A stretch of 64,000 nucleotides of DNA, taken from assembly GCA_017410365.1 (NCBI GenBank), contig JAFQQY010000048.1:1-64000 (forward strand), read 5' to 3'. The notes under the pieces were generated by a model that had not been told where the DNA came from, searched no databases, and was given only the letters and a program-made list of their open reading frames with translations. This document shows positions 11,142-23,643 of the stretch, piece by piece. The DNA is from Prevotella sp. (lineage in GTDB: Bacteria > Bacteroidota > Bacteroidia > Bacteroidales > Bacteroidaceae). Numbering within the stretch: the first letter of the stretch is position 1; each line of letters opens with the position of its first letter. Made by a program: the position numbers and the translations under genes.

Positions 11142-11229
11142 TACTTTTACGACTAGAAGCTTCCAACTAGTCTTTTTCTAGTCGTTATTAGTCGTGTACT
11201 AGTCGTTGTTTTAGTCTTTACTAGTCGTC
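11142..11229. repeat. CTAGTCGTT-type repeat cluster overlapping a gene's 3' end
   Basis: Six or seven copies of (C/T)TAGTC(G/T)T(T/G), about 10-12 bases apart, run from the gap into the last codons of the AlbA_2 gene (TTSKD plus stop). Confidence 0.7.
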
Positions 11230-12887
11230 GCATACCAAGTTCTATCCTTTTGTGTGACTGAACCTTCATTACTCATTTCTGCCAAGATATTACCTACCAA
11301 TCTCTGGTTTTGTTCCTTGGTGTTTCTTGCAGGAAGGGTCTCTCTGAGGTATTCAATGACAAACTCTCTTCGGGTTCCTTCCTCTCCAGCATTCTGGATG
11401 AACTGTAAAGCCATCTGTTTTAACTTGTCACGTTCAAGTCCTTTCACCTTGGTATATTCTGGCAATTGTTTCGTTTGCCTTGCAATGCTCAGGGATATAG
11501 TCAAGTCTGGATATTCACCCTCTACCAATCCGCGTTCCAAGAGGTTCTTGGCATCACTTTCATTCAGTCGGTGCCCTTTCTGTACAGCATCAAGCAAGAT
11601 GCAGTCCTCCAACGACAAGTCTTTGTTCTCTTTCAGAAGTTTGGTATACTTCCCATTGATTGCGTTACCATACAGACGGACGGCAACCTCCTTATTGGCT
11701 GCGTCAATCTCATAGTCAGGCATAGGGAAATGGCGTTTCCACTGCTCATTGAATATCTTGCGGATGCCACGACCAACGATGTCTATCATATTGAAATTCA
11801 CCATCGCATTGCAAAGACACTCGTTGCGGTAGTGGCGCTGCGGCCCATGCGTAGCCAAAGCCTTTTGCAGGGAGCCAGGAATGAAGCTACCACCATTAGC
11901 ATAATACAGGAATCCTGGATTCTCCACCAGATTGATTCTCTCTTGCAGGGTATAGTCCTGATGTGCGATGCAGTTATGAAGCACTTCACGCATGGAATAG
12001 TCATCGTATTGCTGCATTACATCTGGGAACATCGTGCCGCCTGGCATCTCACGCATCGTCAGGTTATGCACTTTGGCAAGTATCTGGTCAACAGTCAAGA
12101 TGAATGGTGCCGTGAAGTGTTCATAGTCAATTACATCTTCGTGTTCATCACGTAGTGACCAAGTGACTCTCACTACGGCAGGACGGAGTTTGAACACTGA
12201 CACAGGCTTGCCCAGCAGAATGATGGCGGCGCGAGTGATTCCACCGTCAATCATCACTCCGGCATTACTCAGAAACTCTTCTACCGACCATGCATTCACC
12301 TCTGCTGCAGGAATACGACTGTGTACCTTCTTGAACATCACCTTTGCCTTGGCAATGGCCACCTCATCCAAATCATCAATTGTGGCATTGGGCACAATTA
12401 CGGCCGACCAGTCGGTATCTGTGAACAACGGTTCATCCAAAATGGCATTCAATCTTTCTTGTGTCAGTTCCACCAAAGAGTCCTCTATCCGTTGCCATGC
12501 CTTATCGTGTGCATAGACAGGACGCTTGGGCTGATGTTTAGGAATATGAATCACCCACACCACCTTCTTTGTGTCGTCTGTGATATATTCCTCGATGTCC
12601 AGTCCCTCGCTTGACAGGTTCGTGCATCGTTCCGTCAATCGGAGTATTGCCTTTTGGCGGTCATAGTTATAGGTGTCTGTGCCGACGACTTCCAATGTCT
12701 TGTCATGCACGCCCACCACGAGGAAACCACCCTCCATGTTGGCGATAGCCGACACGTAGGAAATCACATCATCCTTCTCGTCCCCACAGAACGAGTTCTT
12801 TAGATTCTTAAATTCCTTCCACTCACACCGCGCATTCTCCTGTGGGTACTCGCGGAGCAGGTATTGTTGTAGTTCGAATTGGGTCAT
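11211..12887 (-). CDS. AlbA_2 (Schlafen-type) DNA-binding and RecG-like C-terminal protein
   Basis: A 558-residue protein. Residues 15-135 match the AlbA_2/Schlafen N-terminal domain (EWKEFKN, then ISAIANMEGGFLVVGV-like: YVSAIANMEGG). Residues about 290-400 resemble the degenerate GHKL ATPase module of RecG-like transcriptional regulators (MREVLHNCIAHQDYT, then NPGFLYYANGGSF). The C-terminus looks like winged-helix repeats. Such proteins are often annotated as ATP-dependent DNA helicase-related or RNA-binding and are common in accessory and defence regions; their biochemistry is poorly known. It lies just beyond the 5S rRNA and the helicase-PLD operon, on the same strand, with its own terminator. 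Confidence 0.8.
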   Translation of the reverse strand: MTQFELQQYLLREYPQENARCEWKEFKNLKNSFCGDEKDDVISYVSAIANMEGGFLVVGVHDKTLEVVGTDTYNYDRQKAILRLTERCTNLSSEGLDIEEYITDDTKKVVWVIHIPKHQPKRPVYAHDKAWQRIEDSLVELTQERLNAILDEPLFTDTDWSAVIVPNATIDDLDEVAIAKAKVMFKKVHSRIPAAEVNAWSVEEFLSNAGVMIDGGITRAAIILLGKPVSVFKLRPAVVRVTWSLRDEHEDVIDYEHFTAPFILTVDQILAKVHNLTMREMPGGTMFPDVMQQYDDYSMREVLHNCIAHQDYTLQERINLVENPGFLYYANGGSFIPGSLQKALATHGPQRHYRNECLCNAMVNFNMIDIVGRGIRKIFNEQWKRHFPMPDYEIDAANKEVAVRLYGNAINGKYTKLLKENKDLSLEDCILLDAVQKGHRLNESDAKNLLERGLVEGEYPDLTISLSIARQTKQLPEYTKVKGLERDKLKQMALQFIQNAGEEGTRREFVIEYLRETLPARNTKEQNQRLVGNILAEMSNEGSVTQKDRTWYATTSKD

Positions 12888-13296: not shown

Positions 13297-14928
13297 TTAT
13301 TTATCATTATCTTTAGAAATGTTCAAATCAAAAGACCTTTCAAGTTCCAATTCTGGACGAGTCAGAAGGATCGGCATTTCCTTTTGCTCTTCTTCCTTCA
13401 CAATAGTTGAAGCGTTCTTTGCTCTAGTTGCTGCCCAATTCCTAAGAACTGCTATTTGCTCTTTCATCGTTGTTGATAGAGGAACTGTTTTTGAAATAGC
13501 ATCCACCAAGTGTTTGCTCAGCAACTTAGGATTATCAGGAGATTCAACATAGGCTGCAAACATTGCTTCCTTGATGCATTCTTCAATTTCTGCACCATTA
13601 AAACCTTCCGTTTTCTTGCCAAGCATTTCCATTGGGTATTGAGAAGGTTCTTGCCCTTTCTTTTTCAAATGTATGGAAAAAATGTTTTCTCGTTCCTTTT
13701 GGCTTGGAAGATCTACAAAGAATATTTCATCGAAACGTCCCTTTCGCAACAATTCTGGAGGCAGGAGATTAATGTTGTTTGCAGTAGCCACTACGAATAC
13801 TGGTGATGTCTTCTCTTGCATCCACGTCAATATTGTTGAAAAAATCCTTGATGAAACACCTCCATCTGTTGACCCACTAGATTGCACACCATTAAGTCCC
13901 TTTTCTATTTCATCTATCCAAAGAACACAAGGTGCCACAGCCTCTGCAGTCGCTATTGCCTTTCGTATATTGTCCTCGCTACTACCAACCAATCCTTGAT
14001 AAACCTTGCCAATGTCCAACCTCAACAATGGCATATTCCAGAAAGATGCAATACTTTTTGCGGTAAGACTTTTTCCGCAGCCAGGAACACCCAACAGCAA
14101 TAAACCCTTTGGTTCCTGAAGTCCAAAATCTCTAGCTTTCTTCTCATATGCCTTTTGTCTTTTGAATAGCCAGTCTTTTAAGACTTCCATGCCACCGACA
14201 TCTTTGAGGTCTTCGTTTTTGGGAAAATAATCCAATATTCCTGATTTCTTTATTATTTGCTCTTTTTCTGATGAGACTGTATATGGAGCATTATTTCCCA
14301 AATCGTCTTTCACCGCAGCTAAGCAGAATGCCAAATCTGCTTCCATAGATGTCATACCAAGAGCGGCATCAACCATTCTATTCCGCATTTCTACAGATAG
14401 ATTTATCTTACATTGTCTTTCAACTACGCCTAAAGTTCTCTCCATATCAAACCTGTCAGGCAACGGTATGTTTAATACGGTAACATATTTTTCCAGTTCA
14501 ACAGGTAATTTGTAAATGGCAGACAATATAATCGCATGGGTATTCGTATGCCTTGCCCTTTCTGCAATAGTGCGGATGTAGTATTTTATTTTCTCTTCTT
14601 CAATATAATTGCCAAAATCTTCTAATATAAAAACGTCTTTACTTGTTTCCTTATCATTAAGGATATATTTCAATGTCATTTCCGGCTCGTCGTATTCTTC
14701 TCCTAAATAACGAGAGCCGCTATCTGATACCTCACACAATCCTTCTACGCAATTCCAGTTGAAAAGGCGAATCTGTTTGGCGTTATCAGATTTAAGACTG
14801 TTTATGATACCAACGATCTTTTGTCTTGTCCTGTCGTACTCAAAGCTTGTGAGATATAATACAGGATAATATGCCTTGAGCATATCTCGTATTTTGCCGT
14901 ATATTGCTTCCATATCACTTGTGTTCAA
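13297..14928 (-). CDS. Ycf46-like AAA+ ATPase
   Basis: A 543-residue AAA+ protein closely resembling Ycf46. The N-terminal part begins YGKIRDMLKAYYPVLYLTS, and a degenerate first ATPase-like domain ends in the VELEKYVTVLNIPLPD segment. The active domain has GVPGCGKS (Walker A, about residues 280-287), WIDEIEKGL (Walker B), and VATANNINLLPPELLRKGRFDE (sensor 1 and arginine finger region, given here as family-typical). Ycf46 proteins are poorly understood but often pair with DUF1257/Ycf35, as here, where the upstream gene overlaps by 14 bases. It is the last gene of a six-gene operon with a helicase and PLD protein, so an energy-using or sensing role in that system is likely. Confidence 0.85.
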   Translation of the reverse strand: MNTSDMEAIYGKIRDMLKAYYPVLYLTSFEYDRTRQKIVGIINSLKSDNAKQIRLFNWNCVEGLCEVSDSGSRYLGEEYDEPEMTLKYILNDKETSKDVFILEDFGNYIEEEKIKYYIRTIAERARHTNTHAIILSAIYKLPVELEKYVTVLNIPLPDRFDMERTLGVVERQCKINLSVEMRNRMVDAALGMTSMEADLAFCLAAVKDDLGNNAPYTVSSEKEQIIKKSGILDYFPKNEDLKDVGGMEVLKDWLFKRQKAYEKKARDFGLQEPKGLLLLGVPGCGKSLTAKSIASFWNMPLLRLDIGKVYQGLVGSSEDNIRKAIATAEAVAPCVLWIDEIEKGLNGVQSSGSTDGGVSSRIFSTILTWMQEKTSPVFVVATANNINLLPPELLRKGRFDEIFFVDLPSQKERENIFSIHLKKKGQEPSQYPMEMLGKKTEGFNGAEIEECIKEAMFAAYVESPDNPKLLSKHLVDAISKTVPLSTTMKEQIAVLRNWAATRAKNASTIVKEEEQKEMPILLTRPELELERSFDLNISKDNDK

Positions 14929-15553
14929 TTGTTTGCGTGTTGACTCTACGCGGTTTCATCTTAGCAAGATATTTTGCTGGAATATTCGTCTTTTTGGTCA
15001 TAATACGTCTATTTCCCAACAACTGCTCTAAGACATCCATTGCTTCATGGGCTCTTTCATTGACATCATTTGGAAGATAGTCAGAATCCGTTACAATTGT
15101 ACCATCCTTGAGAATCGTAAATTTGATTTGTGCCACAGGCTCATCTTCACTCTTGTCTTTTGAACGACCAACCATAAAGAAACAATATACTTCTTCTGTA
15201 GTCGGAGTGAAATGATCATTCGACTTGTATGTAAACCCTTTCTTCTTAAATTCTTGAACTAAGGAGTTCTTTGCGTAGGCAGCATTGAGAGCATAAAACT
15301 GGTTTTGCAACTCTTCTACCTTTTGTGTCGCATTGGGCATATAATACGTATTGTATGTAACCTCATTTGTTGTGAGGTTTAATTTCAATGCATATTCTCC
15401 GTACAAACGAGTTCCCTGTTTGGCATCTGTAACGAGGAGCTCATTCCCTTTTATTGTATATGTCCATCCCAAGGTGTCGCACGCAGACTTTAGTACATCT
15501 ACATGCATTACTTGTGGGTTGCGGACAAATCTTGATGACTCGAATCTAGACAT
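14915..15553 (-). CDS. DUF1257/Ycf35-like partner of the AAA ATPase
   Basis: A 212-residue protein with a compact alpha/beta N-terminal part (DVLKSACDTLGWTYTIKGNEL, then LYGEYALKLNL) matching the style of the DUF1257/Ycf35 family, followed by a C-terminal extension (residues about 110-212) rich in charged residues. In cyanobacteria and other bacteria Ycf35 is found with Ycf46-type ATPases, and the neighbouring gene is exactly that. It starts one base after the PLD gene ends and overlaps the ATPase gene by 14 bases, so the three are translationally coupled. The family assignment rests on sequence style and context. Confidence 0.55.
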   Translation of the reverse strand: MSRFESSRFVRNPQVMHVDVLKSACDTLGWTYTIKGNELLVTDAKQGTRLYGEYALKLNLTTNEVTYNTYYMPNATQKVEELQNQFYALNAAYAKNSLVQEFKKKGFTYKSNDHFTPTTEEVYCFFMVGRSKDKSEDEPVAQIKFTILKDGTIVTDSDYLPNDVNERAHEAMDVLEQLLGNRRIMTKKTNIPAKYLAKMKPRRVNTQTIEHK

Positions 15554-15554
15554 A

Positions 15555-18023
15555 TTATTCTATAACATATTTAATTGCGATATCCAATATTTCTGTTGAA
15601 AACAAGAATGTTCTGCTACCATTCCATCGAGTTATTCGATTGTTATGAGCATTTATTATTCCCCTAATTTCATCATTCACCTCAAATTTTTCATATTGGA
15701 ATTGTATTCCTTCAAGATCAAATATAATACGCTTTTGACTCTCATTATATATTATACTGAGATTCTCAAAATCATCACTTTTTTTAATAACACGACGAAG
15801 TGAATTATGAACGTCTGCAAGTCTCATCTTCCTTTCTATACCAAGTTTAATAGCTGAAGCCAAGACATTAGCTCCAGAAAGGACCTTGAAAAGTTTGTCA
15901 GTATTTTCAAGACTAAGATTTATAGGAGAACACATCTTTTTCGCCATAGTGACAGACTCTAACGTAATGCGTGTACCATGCTGATTACCATCCATCAAAT
16001 CAGAAACCATCGATGTGATTTTTGACACTGAGATGCTCTCTGTAATTGGAGTTAAAGAAACAGGTTTCTGAGTTTGGGGCTGAGAGTTAACACCTGAAAT
16101 TTTAGCGGGTTTACCTGGGAAAATCTTTTTCTCACGAATCTTTTCTAACAATTCCTTGTTGTTGTTTAGCAACTCTTGCATAGAGGGGTCATCTATGCTG
16201 TTGTTTTGCATCTCGCTCTCAATAGTTGTCAACATAGAGGTAAGCCGCTTCTTTTCTTTGGGATTGAGGCCTGAAATGTTGGAAGCGGCAACTAATTCCT
16301 GACCAATCTTGACAAGCTTTTTGTTGACTTCACTTTTTATTCTTTCATAAGCCTTTTCTTCCAACATGTCTTCTAACGGGCTAAATAGCTTCCTTATCAC
16401 CTCGTTGTCAATTTTAAGAAAATACTCAAAACGCTCATTCTTGTAATTGGCCAACATGTTAAAGTCGAGTTGCTCAATTTCTTTCCTTATACGGTTTGCA
16501 TATATTTCAGCAAACTCTAATTGGCAGTCTTCATATTTTTTTCTTGCCACGCTGTGATGTGCCAATGCCATTTCTTCTCTGCGAACATGAGTTTGTTGGT
16601 CAGAGACAGAGAAAGAGAGGACATTGAAGCTGCCCGAGAAAAGAACTTTTTGGTCACCCTTTACTTCAATTACATTCTTTAAATGGAATTCAGGCAGTTG
16701 AACATAAAAGAAATTGGGGTATTGTTCGTCCAGCAACTTGATACCAGGTTCTACTTCCTCGTCCATCATTGGTTTGCCATCATTATTGGTGGCAGGCTCT
16801 GAATATGCTATAAATACGCGTTTGTTCTCATCGCACAAGAAATCTTCTATCATTGGACCGCGATCATGTAGGAAAGCCCCTTTTCTTATCCAAGGACTAA
16901 TCAGCCATACCTCATCAGGATCATCCTCTGTGAAAATCTTTTGCAATTCCACTTCAAACGACAAGGAGTCATATAGGGCTTTTTTATGTAAGCGTTCTTT
17001 TGCAGGAACCCTTGTTATAGTACCAGATAACTCATTACTCGGACTTAAAGCAGATTCTTCTTCGCTATTATCATCAATCTCACCACTTTCCTCCTTGATT
17101 ATTTTTAGCTCAGCCTCTTTTATTTCTTCTGAGATTTCAGATTTTGCGACTTCGACATCATCCCCTTCAAGAATAGTTGTCTCTTCATTGTTTTCAATCT
17201 CATAATGAATACAATTATTAAGCAATTCTTCTTTTAACGAGAAATCTCTATTGATATAATTAGCTAAGACATCATTAAGGTTATTGGTGTTTTCGTCAAA
17301 AACAAAAGCCCTCACGTCATCACTATTGGCAACATTTTGTACAAAGCATACATATACTTTATATGATGCTTCGTGACCAGAATGCCACGTAGCACTTTCT
17401 AACAAATATCTGTTTTGTGGGAAATGTACATCTTGCGCTTGATTTTCTGCGTAAGACTTGATTGTTTCTAAATCCAAATTAATATCATCACAAGGAGTGT
17501 TTATTTCTACAATGTTCTTAGAGTTTTCTCCAATCCCATTCTTAATGTCTAACCATGATGGGTGGCTGACATCAACAAAGATATCAAAGGATTTCGTGTA
17601 TGAGTCAGGACGTTCACCTTTGTCGGCATATACACGTCCCTCTGTTGTAAGTGCATAACAACTATCATCCCCTTCAATAGCCCCAAATCCTTTTAATAAG
17701 TCTATTTTGTTTCTAAGAATTGATTGTTCTGCTTTGTCATTAACTACGTCAAGTCCAAGTATTGAGCCAATCTTCTCAAACGAAGATGACTCATCAACCA
17801 ACAAGATACCAACAATACCCTTTTCTAAAGCAGTAATTTTTGCAGGGCGTTGTGTTTTGCCATTGTATGTAGCACGCACGAATTTAATATCGTACGAAAC
17901 ATAGCCAACAATTCTTTCCGAAATACGTTTAGCTTCGTAAACAGCTTTTGCAATGCGGCTACTAATGGGCTCCTGTACCTTCTTTGTGGCAGGGGTTTTA
18001 TGATTTTTTTTTATCTTTTTCAT
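15555..18023 (-). CDS. PLD-superfamily protein with N-terminal winged helix
   Basis: An 822-residue protein. A lysine-rich N-terminus leads to a winged-helix-like region (about 61-140). Residues about 350-490 form a phospholipase-D-type domain with one HxK motif (HLK at 447-449) and GSFN at 464-467. The Asp expected eight residues after the His is not in its usual place; D457 is the nearest. A very acidic linker (about 275-330) precedes it. PLD proteins in defence systems usually act as nucleases, often as dimers sharing two HxK motifs. Its start overlaps the helicase stop by four bases (ATGA), indicating tight coupling. Helicase plus PLD is the core of Mokosh-type defence. Confidence 0.8.
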   Translation of the reverse strand: MKKIKKNHKTPATKKVQEPISSRIAKAVYEAKRISERIVGYVSYDIKFVRATYNGKTQRPAKITALEKGIVGILLVDESSSFEKIGSILGLDVVNDKAEQSILRNKIDLLKGFGAIEGDDSCYALTTEGRVYADKGERPDSYTKSFDIFVDVSHPSWLDIKNGIGENSKNIVEINTPCDDINLDLETIKSYAENQAQDVHFPQNRYLLESATWHSGHEASYKVYVCFVQNVANSDDVRAFVFDENTNNLNDVLANYINRDFSLKEELLNNCIHYEIENNEETTILEGDDVEVAKSEISEEIKEAELKIIKEESGEIDDNSEEESALSPSNELSGTITRVPAKERLHKKALYDSLSFEVELQKIFTEDDPDEVWLISPWIRKGAFLHDRGPMIEDFLCDENKRVFIAYSEPATNNDGKPMMDEEVEPGIKLLDEQYPNFFYVQLPEFHLKNVIEVKGDQKVLFSGSFNVLSFSVSDQQTHVRREEMALAHHSVARKKYEDCQLEFAEIYANRIRKEIEQLDFNMLANYKNERFEYFLKIDNEVIRKLFSPLEDMLEEKAYERIKSEVNKKLVKIGQELVAASNISGLNPKEKKRLTSMLTTIESEMQNNSIDDPSMQELLNNNKELLEKIREKKIFPGKPAKISGVNSQPQTQKPVSLTPITESISVSKITSMVSDLMDGNQHGTRITLESVTMAKKMCSPINLSLENTDKLFKVLSGANVLASAIKLGIERKMRLADVHNSLRRVIKKSDDFENLSIIYNESQKRIIFDLEGIQFQYEKFEVNDEIRGIINAHNNRITRWNGSRTFLFSTEILDIAIKYVIE

Positions 18024-21000
18024 CTTACTGCTGCTTTTAACTGTTCAATACTAAATGTTTTCATGTTATGAATAGATGCTGCATAATTGGTATTCTGCTC
18101 AAATTTGCTTTTGTTACCGACAACTATAAGAAGACGCCGGGCTCGTGAAAATGCAACATTGATTCGCTCTATTTCTCTTGCAAAACCAATTCCGTTCTTC
18201 GAATTATAACTTTTGACTGTTGATATGATGATGATATTACGCTCCATGCCTTGGAAACGGTCGACAACATCCATCCTGTAATTCTTTCCCTTGTATTTCT
18301 TTTTTATTTCCTTGCTTTGGGCACTATAGAACGTAATAATACCGATTTCTTTGTCTTCCGATTTCTTTTGAGAATCCATAAAGGAGGTAAAACCATCAGC
18401 CTTTTTTAAGCCTCTTAATAGAAGGTCTATTGCTTCTAATTCACCTTTGTTCATACAGCTAGTTGAGTTGGCTGGTGTTTGCTCTGGTGTTTGAACATCA
18501 ATCCATACAGCGTGTGTACTGGGCGTAATAATAGGATTTAGCGTGATACCATGCCAACGACTCCCCTTGTCAGATAGATCCGAATTATCCATAGTATCAA
18601 CAATTCCACATTTCAAGCCCCCCGTTTCTGCCAGCTCTTCTTGATAGAATTGCTTAATCGTATTCATAATCTGCTCATGCATACGATATTGTGTATCAAG
18701 GGTAGATACTATCGTTTTGCGTACTTTAGCAGCAGACACAAACAATCGCTTGAATTGAGATTCAGCTTTCTGCAATTTCTCAGCAAGTTCCTTCTTCCCA
18801 ATCTTTTCAAGAGCACTGTCTATTGTGTTCTCATTCATCATTGGAGGCAACTGTTTATGGTCACCTATTACAATGATTTTCTTTCCAAGTACTAGAGGTA
18901 CAGCCATCTCCAAAGGAGTTGCTTTACTTGCTTCATCCATTATCACGATGTCAAAATACATATCTTGGCGTCTTGTCTCACCAAACATTTCAGTATATGT
19001 ATCTTCAAAATCACGTGACCCGCATATACTACATGTGGCAGCAACTAGGTTTACATGGCTCTTATATAATCTGCTAAATTCGATACGAGAGAATTTGTCC
19101 CTCTCTAACAGTTCTGTTTTCCAATAACTGACAGCATCAGAGTATTTTGCGTCATTGGATATCTTGTTCACAATACGATCTATCCATATTTGTGAAGCGT
19201 TGTCTGTTGCATCAAGTTCCAACTCCTTATTTACAGCGTATTTATCAGAACCCTCAGCCCAACTTTTTATTATAGGTAGAGAGAAACGCCTTCCTTCGGG
19301 TTCCAGTTTTTCTGGTCTTCCTATGCGGATAGGTCGAATACCTGCTTGCCCTTGCAAACGTTCAAGAGCATTATCTACTGCCAAGTTCGTTTGAGATGTA
19401 AGCAATATCCTACAATCTGGGTTACGCCTTATTGCTTGCCATATAATCTCAGCAATTACCGTAGTTTTACCAGTTCCAGGAGGACCTTGTATGAGTGCAA
19501 TATCACTTGCAAGCACGGATTTTGTAACCGCTTCTAATTGCTTTTCATTCAAATTTCCAATTTTATGGACGCGAATGTCCTCCATAGCTTCAACTATATC
19601 AGCAACCGTTTCTGCCGCATATTTTGGATCAAAAATAAAATTAGGCAAGTTGGGATTGATTGGTTTATGATTGTAACGACTTTCTGGCTTAAGTATCCTA
19701 TTCATCGCATTGCTCTGACGCATCAATTCCATCGTTTCACCCATTGCAGGGAACTGAATATAGTCGCCAGTTCTTATTGCAAAATCTTTCGTGGACAAAG
19801 CCTTTGCTATTTCATCTGTAGGTTCAATAATGGCATAGTCACGGCATCTTTTAATGCATACACCTATGTTTTGACTATTATTTCTCAGAAACGCCATTCT
19901 TTTTCTTTTGATTATTTTGTCTCTGGAAAGGTAGTTCTTGTCGATTTCTTCATCATCCACTTCATCTAGCTTATCATAAGCTTTTCCGTTAATATGGTTG
20001 ACGGCCTCATTTCTAAAATCTGATTGTAGCTTTCTTTCAAGTTCTTGGAGCAGAGACGGGTCTTCTGTAAAAGACCATTCTGTTACTCCTTTGTTGTTAT
20101 CATCGTCATAGAGAATTTTTATCCCATGAATGTTCGCAAGGGAATCTTCTAGTATTTTTTCAATAGCATCTCTTTCCTCGATGTCTCCAAATTTGAACTC
20201 AAAAGCTAATTCTCGCGCATCACGACTAAGTTTGTTTTTAGAAAACTTTTCTCGTTTGTCCGTAAGGGAAACGCTCACTCTTTCAAACAAAGAACGTCTA
20301 TAGTCTTCTTTCTCGCAAAGGAACTCTATTCTGGCAGTTGGCTCATACTGTGGAACTTCCGCAATTGTTGCGCTATCTAATTGCTGGAGAATGTCTTCTC
20401 GTAAAGCCGTATAATCATCTTCTGATTGTGGAGAGAAAATCACACAGGAACGCGGAACGTCAACAACAACAGACTTTTTTCCGTAATTGCTTAACTTTAG
20501 TTCTTGTAATGCCGCCCTGTCAATTTGGGGTGCGAATGCGTAATGAAAAGTGCTGTTTATGTATTGATCTGTATATACTTTTCTTACCTCATTGAACAAT
20601 CTTCCCAAACCATTCAACTCATGGAAATCATTAATAATCCATTGGTACGCGTTTCCTTTAATTGTTGCGCCTTCTATTGCAATAGTAGTATCAATAGATT
20701 TGGAAGGACTAATACTTACCATACAACTTGCAAATTGAAGATTTTTGAAGACATCAAGCGATGTGTCTAATGGTTTTTTCGAAGAAACCACAAAATGCTT
20801 CCCATGAGGTACTATGTTTGCGGTATCTGGCAGCCACGCTTTAATTTTCTCAATGTCAATCCCCTCTGGTGATGGTACCAGACGCATAATCATTTTGGTA
20901 GTAGGTACTACTTCTGCTATCCCTTTGTGGTTGGTTTCAACGATTTTTCGCAAGAACTCAAAGTCCTTGTCTGATGATAATTTAAACTCACCGCTGTCTG

Positions 21001-21949
21001 TTCTTTCTATATGAGTTCCAAAATCATGAAGTTCCTGATCTATTGCAGACAGGATACTGTTTAACTCATCAGGATTTGAAACAATTGCGATTTTACCGCT
21101 AACAACATTTTCAGGGTTTGCTTCAGATGTATAACAATAATCTCGGCCTATCGCTTTAATGTCCTCAATAATCTCCTCAGATATGGCTTGATAACTGTCA
21201 AAAGAGATATGACACTCCCCATTTCCAATCTCAACATCAAATTTCTGTTCGCATTGACTGGATAGCTTTTCAATAATGGCATTTTTTAGGTTTTCTCCAT
21301 AGCTCTCCATATCGAAAACCAATTTAATTAAGCCACCCTTTTGATTATGAACTGACGAGATTTTGATGAGATCACGCTTGTTCTCAAGAATGGCGTTGAG
21401 TCCGTCCAAATAGGCCTGCCACATCTCCTTGTCCTCTTCAATTCTAATCTCAATGGGAGGGATGGGAAGCGCAAAACAACTTGCAATAAACTCCTTGACA
21501 TCGTTAGTGTGGCCGACCCAATAGGAACCTGCCGAGTTGAAAAGCTTTAACGTGTCCTCAAATTGATCCACAAATTTTATCTCGCACTTCCTTACAATGT
21601 ATTGTTCCTCTTCTTCAGGGAGAACCATGTTCTTTTGATTGAAGTGTGGCCACTGTAACGTGAACTCATCGCGTGATAATTGTGCAGTCATGCAAAATGA
21701 CTCATCGTCAACCTTAATAGACAACTCATCGTATTCTTTTGCATTACGTCCCTTTTGTTTGCGATGAATAAAAACGCATGTGTGAACACCAGACAACATC
21801 GAAACGATAGTGTCAAAAAGAACAGATGATGTTTTGTCGTGAAACTCTACGTTTTTACTGGTGTATCTTATAAACAATGGAAGAACTTCTTTTTCCTCAA
21901 CATTGCTATAGATACTTTCCTCCGGCTGTCTAATTTCTAATTCTGCCAT
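18020..21949 (-). CDS. Large SF1 (Upf1/DNA2-like, COG1112-type) helicase
   Basis: A 1,309-residue protein. The last 500 residues form a superfamily 1 helicase: a Q-like LNEKQLEAV motif, Walker A GPPGTGKTT at about 820-828, IVIMDEASKATP (motif II) near 1003, GDHKQLPP (motif III), DTQYRMHEQ (motif IV) near 1085, and VDRFQGMERNIIIIS (motif V) then NVAFSRARRLLIVVG (motif VI). The first 790 residues are mostly unassigned mixed alpha/beta repeats. Helicases of this kind work on RNA or DNA and are the motor of Mokosh-type and several other anti-phage systems. It is the third gene of a six-gene operon and is visibly more A+T-rich than the housekeeping genes around it. Confidence 0.85.
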   Translation of the reverse strand: MAELEIRQPEESIYSNVEEKEVLPLFIRYTSKNVEFHDKTSSVLFDTIVSMLSGVHTCVFIHRKQKGRNAKEYDELSIKVDDESFCMTAQLSRDEFTLQWPHFNQKNMVLPEEEEQYIVRKCEIKFVDQFEDTLKLFNSAGSYWVGHTNDVKEFIASCFALPIPPIEIRIEEDKEMWQAYLDGLNAILENKRDLIKISSVHNQKGGLIKLVFDMESYGENLKNAIIEKLSSQCEQKFDVEIGNGECHISFDSYQAISEEIIEDIKAIGRDYCYTSEANPENVVSGKIAIVSNPDELNSILSAIDQELHDFGTHIERTDSGEFKLSSDKDFEFLRKIVETNHKGIAEVVPTTKMIMRLVPSPEGIDIEKIKAWLPDTANIVPHGKHFVVSSKKPLDTSLDVFKNLQFASCMVSISPSKSIDTTIAIEGATIKGNAYQWIINDFHELNGLGRLFNEVRKVYTDQYINSTFHYAFAPQIDRAALQELKLSNYGKKSVVVDVPRSCVIFSPQSEDDYTALREDILQQLDSATIAEVPQYEPTARIEFLCEKEDYRRSLFERVSVSLTDKREKFSKNKLSRDARELAFEFKFGDIEERDAIEKILEDSLANIHGIKILYDDDNNKGVTEWSFTEDPSLLQELERKLQSDFRNEAVNHINGKAYDKLDEVDDEEIDKNYLSRDKIIKRKRMAFLRNNSQNIGVCIKRCRDYAIIEPTDEIAKALSTKDFAIRTGDYIQFPAMGETMELMRQSNAMNRILKPESRYNHKPINPNLPNFIFDPKYAAETVADIVEAMEDIRVHKIGNLNEKQLEAVTKSVLASDIALIQGPPGTGKTTVIAEIIWQAIRRNPDCRILLTSQTNLAVDNALERLQGQAGIRPIRIGRPEKLEPEGRRFSLPIIKSWAEGSDKYAVNKELELDATDNASQIWIDRIVNKISNDAKYSDAVSYWKTELLERDKFSRIEFSRLYKSHVNLVAATCSICGSRDFEDTYTEMFGETRRQDMYFDIVIMDEASKATPLEMAVPLVLGKKIIVIGDHKQLPPMMNENTIDSALEKIGKKELAEKLQKAESQFKRLFVSAAKVRKTIVSTLDTQYRMHEQIMNTIKQFYQEELAETGGLKCGIVDTMDNSDLSDKGSRWHGITLNPIITPSTHAVWIDVQTPEQTPANSTSCMNKGELEAIDLLLRGLKKADGFTSFMDSQKKSEDKEIGIITFYSAQSKEIKKKYKGKNYRMDVVDRFQGMERNIIIISTVKSYNSKNGIGFAREIERINVAFSRARRLLIVVGNKSKFEQNTNYAASIHNMKTFSIEQLKAAVR

Positions 21950-21972
21950 TGTGATATAATGAGTTATGTGTT

Positions 21973-22431
21973 CTAATGTTGTTTATTCAAGTATACAATA
22001 CTAATGTCTCTGTCGTACATGTTCAGTTGTAGTCTCTTAATGGCATTATTCTCAATCAAGAGAACAACGCCATAACTAGCGAAAGATGCATCAGATAAAG
22101 GTGCGCCCATTGCCAATGCATTTTCGTCATAGCCATAACCGCGCAATTCTACAAAATTGTCATTTACTGAAACAATATGCATACGCTTGGGAGCCATCTG
22201 GATATTATTCTGCCAAAATGGATGAAGGCCATCAAGATTATACATGGTAACAGTATATCCTACGCCTCCCTCAATGTTTTTCTCAATCACAAAACGTCTG
22301 TTGCAACCATAATTATGTCCTGATACATTTTGACCATTTTGGAAGCGTATATGATCAGAAGAATCAAAAAACACTTTACCTTCTGGTGGATAATTATTGC
22401 CTTCAATGAGACATTTTATTATTTCTTTCAT
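21973..22431 (-). CDS. Orphan protein of the helicase operon
   Basis: A 152-residue beta-rich protein that I do not recognise. It has no signal peptide or membrane segment. A HNYGCNRRFVIE segment and several aromatic-glycine turns (GVGYTVTMYNLDGLHPFWQ, ELRGYGYDENAL) suggest a small all-beta fold. It starts 13 bases after the 70-residue gene and ends 23 bases before the helicase start, so it belongs to the same operon. It could be a sensor or specificity subunit, but this is inference from position. Confidence 0.7.
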   Translation of the reverse strand: MKEIIKCLIEGNNYPPEGKVFFDSSDHIRFQNGQNVSGHNYGCNRRFVIEKNIEGGVGYTVTMYNLDGLHPFWQNNIQMAPKRMHIVSVNDNFVELRGYGYDENALAMGAPLSDASFASYGVVLLIENNAIKRLQLNMYDRDISIVYLNKQH

Positions 22432-22444
22432 TCTTTTAGAAAAG

Positions 22445-22657
22445 TTACTGATATGTTCTAAATATGTCTATTTTCTTTCTGAGTATTGTATGAAACCATA
22501 GTGGAGTATCACCTATCGTCTCGCGTACATATTTCAGTATCTCGTCAAACGTGAAATACTCCGGCAACTCAAAACCATGATACTGCTCAGATTTCATGAA
22601 GAAGTCCATTACTTCCTCATGATTCAGGGATAATATGTTTTTTGTTGTTTTAGTCAT
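22445..22657 (-). CDS. Small protein heading the helicase operon
   Basis: A 70-residue protein, unrecognised, with an acidic-aromatic composition (MTKTTKNILSLNHEEVMDF, then ELPEYFTFDEILKYVRE). It is the first gene after the putative promoter at 22728-22735. The compact helical pattern and small size would fit a regulatory or adaptor subunit. No close family comes to mind. Confidence 0.6.
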   Translation of the reverse strand: MTKTTKNILSLNHEEVMDFFMKSEQYHGFELPEYFTFDEILKYVRETIGDTPLWFHTILRKKIDIFRTYQ

Positions 22658-22851: not shown

Positions 22852-23643
22852 TCACACAAACACAATAGGAGAGGAGATGTTGCGCAAGGTGTTTACAACC
22901 GACCAACCGGCGATTTCGGCGGTGGCACTGTAAACATCGATGACGGCATGCACCTGATTGTTGCGTATCTCCACGCGCTGTGTGTCGCCCTTGAAATAAG
23001 GTGTTGACTGAATTGTTACCTGCATGTTCTCTGGACCTACACTGGCGCGAGAGGCTGCCACGGTTACGTTGACCTTGGTAGGGAACATCTTGATGGCTTC
23101 TTTGGCAGTGCCTGTGAACACGGTACGCTGCTCTGTTAGCAATGAGTCGTCGTAAACGGATGTGCCTACAAGTCCTTGCGGACATTTCTCATTGAAGAAC
23201 TTTGCCGTTGCTCCCCCCATAAGCGTTGCCGTCTGGAGTATGTCGAAACCGCCAGTTGCACCGGAGACGATGTAGATATGTGTGCCGTTTTCCTTGGCAA
23301 CCTCCATTGCCTCGGCATAGAAAGCATCGTCGGCAAAGGCACCGATAGACAATGTTACTATCGATGTGCCGTTTTTGAGTGCCGGCACTGCCCATTGGCG
23401 CATGGCTGCAGGTGATGCCGCCTCTACCAGATAATCTGGTTTGAGAGCAAGCAACTCCTCAAAAGAATCCGCAACTTGACAATCCATGCCTTGCTCATTG
23501 GCTTTGCCAGCAAGCATTATGGCTCTGTCTTCTGTTCGTGAATAGACTCCCACCAATTCGTAATCGGGCAGAAGTCCTTTAATCATTGCATCAACAACGA
23601 TGCTTCCTAATTTGCCGCAACCGGCTATTGCTAGTTTTTTCAT
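22852..23643 (-). CDS. L-aspartate dehydrogenase-like protein (DUF108)
   Basis: A 263-residue protein with an N-terminal Rossmann motif (MKKLAIAGCGKLGSIVVDAM) and the DUF108 catalytic domain seen in L-aspartate dehydrogenases (NadX), including YIVSGATGGFD and TVAASRASVGPENMQVTI-like segments. The family makes iminoaspartate or oxaloacetate from aspartate with NAD(P), which can feed NAD synthesis or nitrogen metabolism. It is cytosolic and appears monocistronic, as a repeat tract follows the region upstream of its start. The substrate cannot be confirmed from sequence. Confidence 0.8.
   Translation of the reverse strand: MKKLAIAGCGKLGSIVVDAMIKGLLPDYELVGVYSRTEDRAIMLAGKANEQGMDCQVADSFEELLALKPDYLVEAASPAAMRQWAVPALKNGTSIVTLSIGAFADDAFYAEAMEVAKENGTHIYIVSGATGGFDILQTATLMGGATAKFFNEKCPQGLVGTSVYDDSLLTEQRTVFTGTAKEAIKMFPTKVNVTVAASRASVGPENMQVTIQSTPYFKGDTQRVEIRNNQVHAVIDVYSATAEIAGWSVVNTLRNISSPIVFV

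Follow-up and report, generated by a model that had tools for sequence, protein, structure and literature searches.

A 64,000-nt stretch of DNA from Prevotella sp. (GenBank assembly GCA_017410365.1, contig JAFQQY010000048.1, positions 1 to 64,000; hereafter the window) carries an islet of six genes, all on the minus strand, which an original prediction made from the letters alone had proposed as the operon of a Mokosh-like but distinct defence system. All six open reading frames (ORFs) lie where they had been placed. In reading order they are S1 (22445-22657, 70 aa), S2 (21973-22431, 152 aa), HEL (18020-21949, 1309 aa, a Upf1-like superfamily 1 helicase related to MkoA), NUC (15555-18023, 822 aa, with a winged-helix and a PLD nuclease domain), D1257 (14915-15553, 212 aa, DUF1257 (Ycf35)-like, with a possible DUF2997-like C-terminal half) and YCF46 (13297-14913, 538 aa, an AAA+ ATPase with a p97/Cdc48 D2-like core). 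The 4-base overlap of HEL with NUC and the one-base gap between NUC and D1257 are real. The overlap foreseen between D1257 and YCF46 is not. The ORF at 13297-14928 (543 aa) is YCF46 with a five-residue extension from a TTG codon, seen in the window only, and the ORFs of all 26 aligned orthologues start at the column of window residue M6 (seven of the 26 have a few extra residues after it). The start codon of YCF46 is thus, judging from this alignment, most likely the ATG at 14913, and one base separates the gene from D1257. A Bacteroidales promoter pattern gave two matches, not above chance and none near the operon.

Four of these genes, HEL, NUC, D1257 and YCF46, recur together in the window and in 29 further loci, without exception where the contigs reach. 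The proposal of a single multi-protein system therefore holds for four of the six genes, and co-occurrence is not confined to this genome. NUC and YCF46 are found in 30 of 30 loci (in L027 and L033 the contig stops within YCF46), and HEL in 28, missing only where the contigs of L022 and L033 end before it. Twenty-seven of the further loci come from a D1257 scan of 84,980 species genomes, made by way of two short peptide patterns (four are contigs of the NUC search), and two from a search of the phylum; the count is thus biased for D1257, not for YCF46, and does not measure how often the genes occur alone. A NUC search of 295 genomes of the order returned six positives, its own genome included. 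Four of the other five carry the quartet in the same order, and the fifth is the locus L008, discussed below. D1257 was found in three of 395 phylum genomes and three of 151 family genomes, own genome included. The distribution of the quartet is patchy.

The named records are Bacteroidota or lack a closer label, except for two metagenome-assembled genome (MAG) contigs. One (L022) is labelled Lachnoclostridium and exhibits 99% DNA identity to a Bacteroides locus; the other (L024) is labelled Alphaproteobacteria and holds a Bacteroidota-type copy. We suspect that both were wrongly binned, as is probable. Searches of plasmids, phages and viral contigs with NUC or D1257 found none, the viral scans consisting of a few short peptide patterns. 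Of two further DUF1257 matches in the phylum search, one (L051) seems to overlap an rpoC-like frame and was rejected, and the other (L052) lies inside a 1276-aa frame.

HEL matches the Pfam helicase domains AAA_11 (E-value = 1.9e-39) and AAA_12 (8.2e-41), and its solved relatives are SMUBP-2, UPF1, SEN1 and DNA2. The Walker A/B and other helicase motifs are intact and conserved in 25 aligned rows. As the original prediction had it, this is a Mokosh-like helicase: it matches the PADLOC model of MkoA with an E-value of 3.1e-107 over positions 402-1096 of 1112, and two helicases from loci of the PIN type described below do so with E-values of 2.3e-101 and 1.6e-103. MkoC is matched in three pieces only (E-value = 6.5e-39). 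The NERD domain (PF08378), given as a feature of Mokosh type I in an excerpt of PMC10952713, is not among the Pfam matches of HEL or NUC up to an E-value of 1. MkoB is matched by the nucleases of L008 (E-value = 1.1e-11, positions 23-421 of 610), L029 (4.6e-9) and L007 (3.8e-5), and not by those of L014, L009, L011 or the window (at E-value 0.1). This model is unspecific, with matches in 114 of 295 genomes, and was dropped as a marker. Thus the HEL-NUC pair is clearly related to Mokosh, while membership in canonical Mokosh type I is not claimed, given that no NERD domain was found and that MkoB is matched in some of the loci and not in others.

The predicted PLD protein is confirmed for NUC by its fold and an HxK...GSxN motif, Pfam giving no nuclease match. 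In its model, residues 62-136 form a MarR-like winged helix in the N-terminal domain, and residues from about 340 to 510 form a PLD nuclease domain, which bears one HKD motif and has SauUSI, BfiI and Nuc as its nearest folds. Sequence searches of the PDB with profiles of NUC and of D1257 were uninformative. NUC is of this PLD type, with one active-site motif, in 20 of the 30 loci. The other ten have lost the PLD motif and carry a PIN nuclease after it; the PIN motif is present and the HKD motif absent in all ten, PIN_4 is matched in 8/8 of the proteins scanned and the PIN acidic residues are invariant in 9/9 aligned. The decayed PLD domain is retained in these proteins. Such a swap, on a PLD domain now devoid of catalytic residues, suggests a need for nuclease activity with a free choice of chemistry: the nuclease seems from these alignments to be required but exchangeable.

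The DUF1257/Ycf35 label of D1257 is weak by single-sequence criteria and better supported by profile comparison. Against Pfam DUF1257 (PF06868), D1257 scores 12.5 bits (E-value = 0.17), below the gathering score of 22.2; three of five D1257 members match at all (best E-value = 0.086). When a profile of 24 D1257 rows was compared by hhalign with one of three DUF1257-like proteins (one annotated as such, two assigned by us), the score was 32.6 against at most 16.3 in 40 column shuffles, colinear over 90 columns, with a probability of 48%; single DUF1257 proteins gave 49% over 17 columns and 0.3%. Since the profile comparison beats all shuffles, D1257 is very probably related to DUF1257. A joined DUF1257 and DUF2997 profile scored 36.2 (at most 21.3 in shuffles) and placed DUF2997 colinearly. 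DUF2997 alone scored 15.3 against the C-terminal half, below the best shuffle (16.1); a single-protein comparison gave nothing, and PF11211 has no match in the own genome. A fused DUF2997-like tail is possible. The AlphaFold model of D1257 (mean confidence, pLDDT, 81.5) has no convincing Foldseek match in the PDB (best E-value = 0.016), and PADLOC gave no match for this protein.

YCF46 matches Pfam AAA (E-value = 1.3e-30), carries the Walker A/B motifs in 27 aligned rows and has p97/VCP and Cdc48 as its nearest solved chains. We take the name Ycf46 to apply to this ATPase, no curated Ycf46 model being among the matches. The likeness that had been predicted is borne out by a full-length match, N-terminal half included, to the phage family phrog_8638 (E-value = 5.7e-142, residues 9-515) and by 33% identity (residues 12-517) to the AAA protein adjoining DUF1257 on CP114562. 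PADLOC returned matches of the AAA core to IetA (E-value = 1.2e-25) and TRIP13, and a weak one to mad8 (1.7e-7, best stretch residues 96-136).

Ycf46 kin occur on plasmids and phages. The Nitrospirota plasmid CP114562 and a viral contig (IMGVR_UViG_3300028018_000002, L059) each carry a Ycf46-like AAA+ gene with genes for DUF1257 and DUF2997 after it, and an IncC plasmid (L049) has the AAA+ gene and, several genes further along, one for DUF2997. In the three phages inspected that encode the AAA+ protein, no neighbour is annotated as DUF1257. According to an excerpt of PMC4284462, DUF2997 and ycf35 are neighbours in one type of cyanobacterial ferredoxin gene cluster. Of its plasmid relatives, YCF46 is closest to one (46.7% identity; NC_015386.1, Treponema succinifaciens, L045) that is encoded among VgrG/baseplate-like genes, so that the AAA+ lineage would serve several machines. 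A Klebsiella plasmid (NZ_CP082786.1, L048) carries a cluster of VWA, Ycf46-like AAA+, DUF1887 CARF and PP2C phosphatase genes, which looks like another AAA+ conflict module.

Phylogenetic trees built from 27 rows of YCF46 and from 25 of HEL both separate the PLD-type from the PIN-type loci with 100/100 support; finer branches were compared by eye only. The cassette also moves between distant hosts. L014 (Bacteroides finegoldii) and L015 (a rumen Prevotellaceae MAG) exhibit 96.4% DNA identity over 15 kb. L014 and L016 are 93.7% identical over 9.6 kb, from S2 to just past YCF46; beyond the cassette they match in no more than two segments of roughly 0.5 kb (69-70%) and a third of 101 bases. L019 and L036 are 94.6% identical over 9.0 kb and share nothing outside, with a Schlafen-like gene next downstream in both. 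Beyond the closest group of PLD-type loci, identity to the window is 31-39% for HEL and NUC and 50-74% for D1257 and YCF46. HEL and NUC thus diverge clearly faster, which is what contact with changing phage targets would lead one to expect. Alignments, trees and structural models together establish a conserved gene set with intact motifs, an exchange of the nuclease, co-inheritance and horizontal transfer of the cassette.

Some of the genes beside these loci are defence genes. We collected 96 complete neighbour proteins of at least 110 aa within 5.5 kb of 18 loci, L008 included. They matched 185 PADLOC families, with PbeA, PDC-S02, PDC-S57, PD_DExK, DrmD and mad2 among the 25 listed, and Pfam added MmeI, McrBC, TOTE primase and YhcG. 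Single scans of ten neighbours, chosen largely on size, gave strong defence matches for five: DndA/SspA (L007), Dsr2 (L014), PrimPol (L036), DndD/PbeC (L035) and, in L008, which lacks the AAA pair, an HKD and Snf2 defence protein that follows HEL-NUC.

Of the two leader genes, predicted to be orphans, S1 is not one, and S2 is so in part. S1 matches residues 2-52 of 489 of the PADLOC AbiP2 model (E-value = 4.5e-13) and corresponds to the N-terminal 52 or so residues of an AbiP2-type reverse transcriptase. It has no relative among the ORFs of the other loci. Besides this piece (22499-22651), the AbiP2 model has a single weak and partial match in the own genome (E-value = 0.01). The piece ends 67 bases before S2, and the block common to L014 and L016 likewise begins 67 bases before the corresponding S2 start. 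Since the sole convincing AbiP2 piece is this N-terminus, S1 is, on sequence grounds, what is left of another, truncated defence gene, lying at the left edge of the cassette, and no part of the system. S2 has no convincing family in Pfam, PADLOC or the other family libraries searched. It is an accessory gene, being found in 12 of the 30 loci (60-79% identical to its 11 orthologues). Homologues occur in two of 295 order genomes in which the NUC search found nothing, namely L064 (40% identity) and L065 (37%); the latter lies in a run of small genes.

Just downstream of the quartet, the window encodes a Schlafen/AlbA_2 and HATPase_c_4 protein (11211-12887, minus strand), with relatives in the same place in L024 (78%) and L036 (61%) and less similar ones in L016 and L019. 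The L024 copies of this gene and of S2 resemble those of the window far more than the quartet between them does, which looks as though one quartet had replaced another inside common flanks. On the other side, an aspartate-dehydrogenase-like gene (22852-23643, minus strand) adjoins the islet. It is found in one of 40 genus genomes, the own genome, and a protein more distant from the islet has many paralogues, so that no empty site could be shown.

We consider that the quartet is probably a mobile four-gene system against phages or other mobile elements, grown from a Mokosh-type helicase-nuclease pair. For an immune function in general our confidence is high. The Upf1-like helicase would survey nucleic acid, RNA or an R-loop/single-stranded DNA being likelier than intact duplex, and hand it to the partner nuclease, which would cut with the PLD active site in one clade and with the added PIN domain in the other. 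A target of the RNA type is slightly favoured; Mokosh itself degrades foreign viral transcripts, according to an excerpt of PMC11291487. More tentatively, the p97-like AAA+ protein and its DUF1257-like partner might form an ATP-driven gate or remodeller that loads, releases or disassembles the helicase-nuclease complex, so that action needs the right trigger.

Several observations weigh against this interpretation. The nearest folds of NUC, BfiI and SauUSI, are restriction endonucleases, and both DNA and RNA are possible targets. In L008 (4971-13986, minus strand), HEL and NUC are present and the AAA pair is missing. This pair may also serve a purpose of its own, the AAA-DUF1257-DUF2997 triads lacking this helicase in the stretch read. 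Neighbours, surveyed at these loci only, include housekeeping genes (aminotransferases, GAPDH, a ribosomal protein), and five of the ten neighbours scanned singly had no match at an E-value of 1e-20. The HEL tree carries a long-branch warning at the join of the PLD and PIN types.

A bolder version, which we regard as doubtful, would make the quartet a separate class of immune machine, with a Upf1-like helicase, an interchangeable nuclease module (either PLD, or PIN on an inactive PLD scaffold) and a p97-like AAA+/DUF1257 engine. If true, this would be the first immune role for a Ycf46/Ycf35-type pair, and the same pair on phages, IncC plasmids and plastids would be suggested to work on nucleoprotein complexes.

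The AAA+ protein as antitoxin is the strongest rival, because a relative of the Ycf46 superfamily plays that part in sgiAT (as given in an excerpt of PMC10954446). In such a guard or toxin-antitoxin arrangement the helicase-nuclease would be toxic, AAA+/DUF1257 its antitoxin or chaperone, and phage interference would free the nuclease so that the cell dies or stalls. The IetA match of YCF46 and the slow evolution of the AAA pair relative to the other half of the cassette are consistent with this scheme. The IetA match, however, covers the AAA core only, the cassette has no protease gene, and L008 keeps HEL and NUC without the AAA pair, which is unexpected for a lethal nuclease unless another gene protects. 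We judge this arrangement unlikely.

It is more improbable still that the cassette is an ordinary Mokosh type I with two functionless hitch-hikers. The MkoA match, the MkoB match of L008 and, in L093, a Mokosh-like helicase-PLD pair that has no AAA genes in the 13 kb read would agree with it, but YCF46 stands beside D1257 and NUC in every locus (the loci having been found through D1257), its tree has the same deep split as that of HEL, and the window NUC lacks a match to MkoB, itself an unspecific model. Least probable is a housekeeping or stress module that acts on nucleic acids, in RNA decay or in repair, and is carried along by mobile elements: the combination of a Upf1-like helicase and a PIN nuclease resembles RNA quality control, and Ycf46 kin sit on plasmids and phages, the closest among baseplate-like genes, but patchy presence, transfer between distant hosts and defence genes among the neighbours speak against it.

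A mobile defence system of the kind favoured here would link the poorly understood but widespread Ycf46/DUF1257 AAA+ pair (plastids, cyanobacteria, viruses, plasmids) to a defence-like helicase-nuclease, give a testable handle on the job of that pair, and add a candidate to the defence repertoire of Bacteroidota, gut species included.

The quartet differs from the known systems compared with it. The original prediction knew of no defence system with Ycf35/Ycf46, and no named system identical to the quartet was found: PADLOC holds none of helicase-nuclease-DUF1257-Ycf46 make-up, and the literature searched, with many subscription papers and preprints outside it, yielded no defence system with Ycf46, DUF1257, SpoVK or COG0464-phage make-up and none combining PIN, PLD and helicase in this way. 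Among the matches listed for Ycf46, Ycf35 and DUF2997, nothing was of this make-up.

MkoC of Mokosh type II is a single helicase-PLD fusion protein. The quartet shares helicase and PLD with it, but here they are separate genes, and HEL matches MkoC in pieces. Hachiman (HamAB) is not known to have an AAA+ partner. It resembles the quartet in the way it would work, a sensor helicase controlling a partner nuclease in the excerpted description, and no family relation is claimed. IetAS and the SGI1 sgiAT are conflict systems whose AAA+ ATPase belongs to the same broad superfamily, but the cassette lacks a protease gene such as the subtilisin IetS, and the likeness concerns the core domain. The triads of CP114562 and L059 share a Ycf46-like AAA+ gene adjoining that of a DUF1257 protein; in contrast to the window, no helicase-nuclease pair is seen beside them, their gene order is reversed, and there, as in the cyanobacterial clusters, DUF1257 and DUF2997 are not joined, as they perhaps are in D1257. 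Mokosh type I likewise has an MkoA-type Upf1-like helicase directly followed by a PLD protein, and the quartet differs from it by its AAA+ and DUF1257-like genes in all 30 loci, by the PIN-for-PLD variant and by the lack of NERD in the window HEL and NUC. We conclude that the cassette is a Mokosh-derived variant, new with respect to PADLOC and the literature searched, with a role in defence that we infer from its genes and their surroundings.

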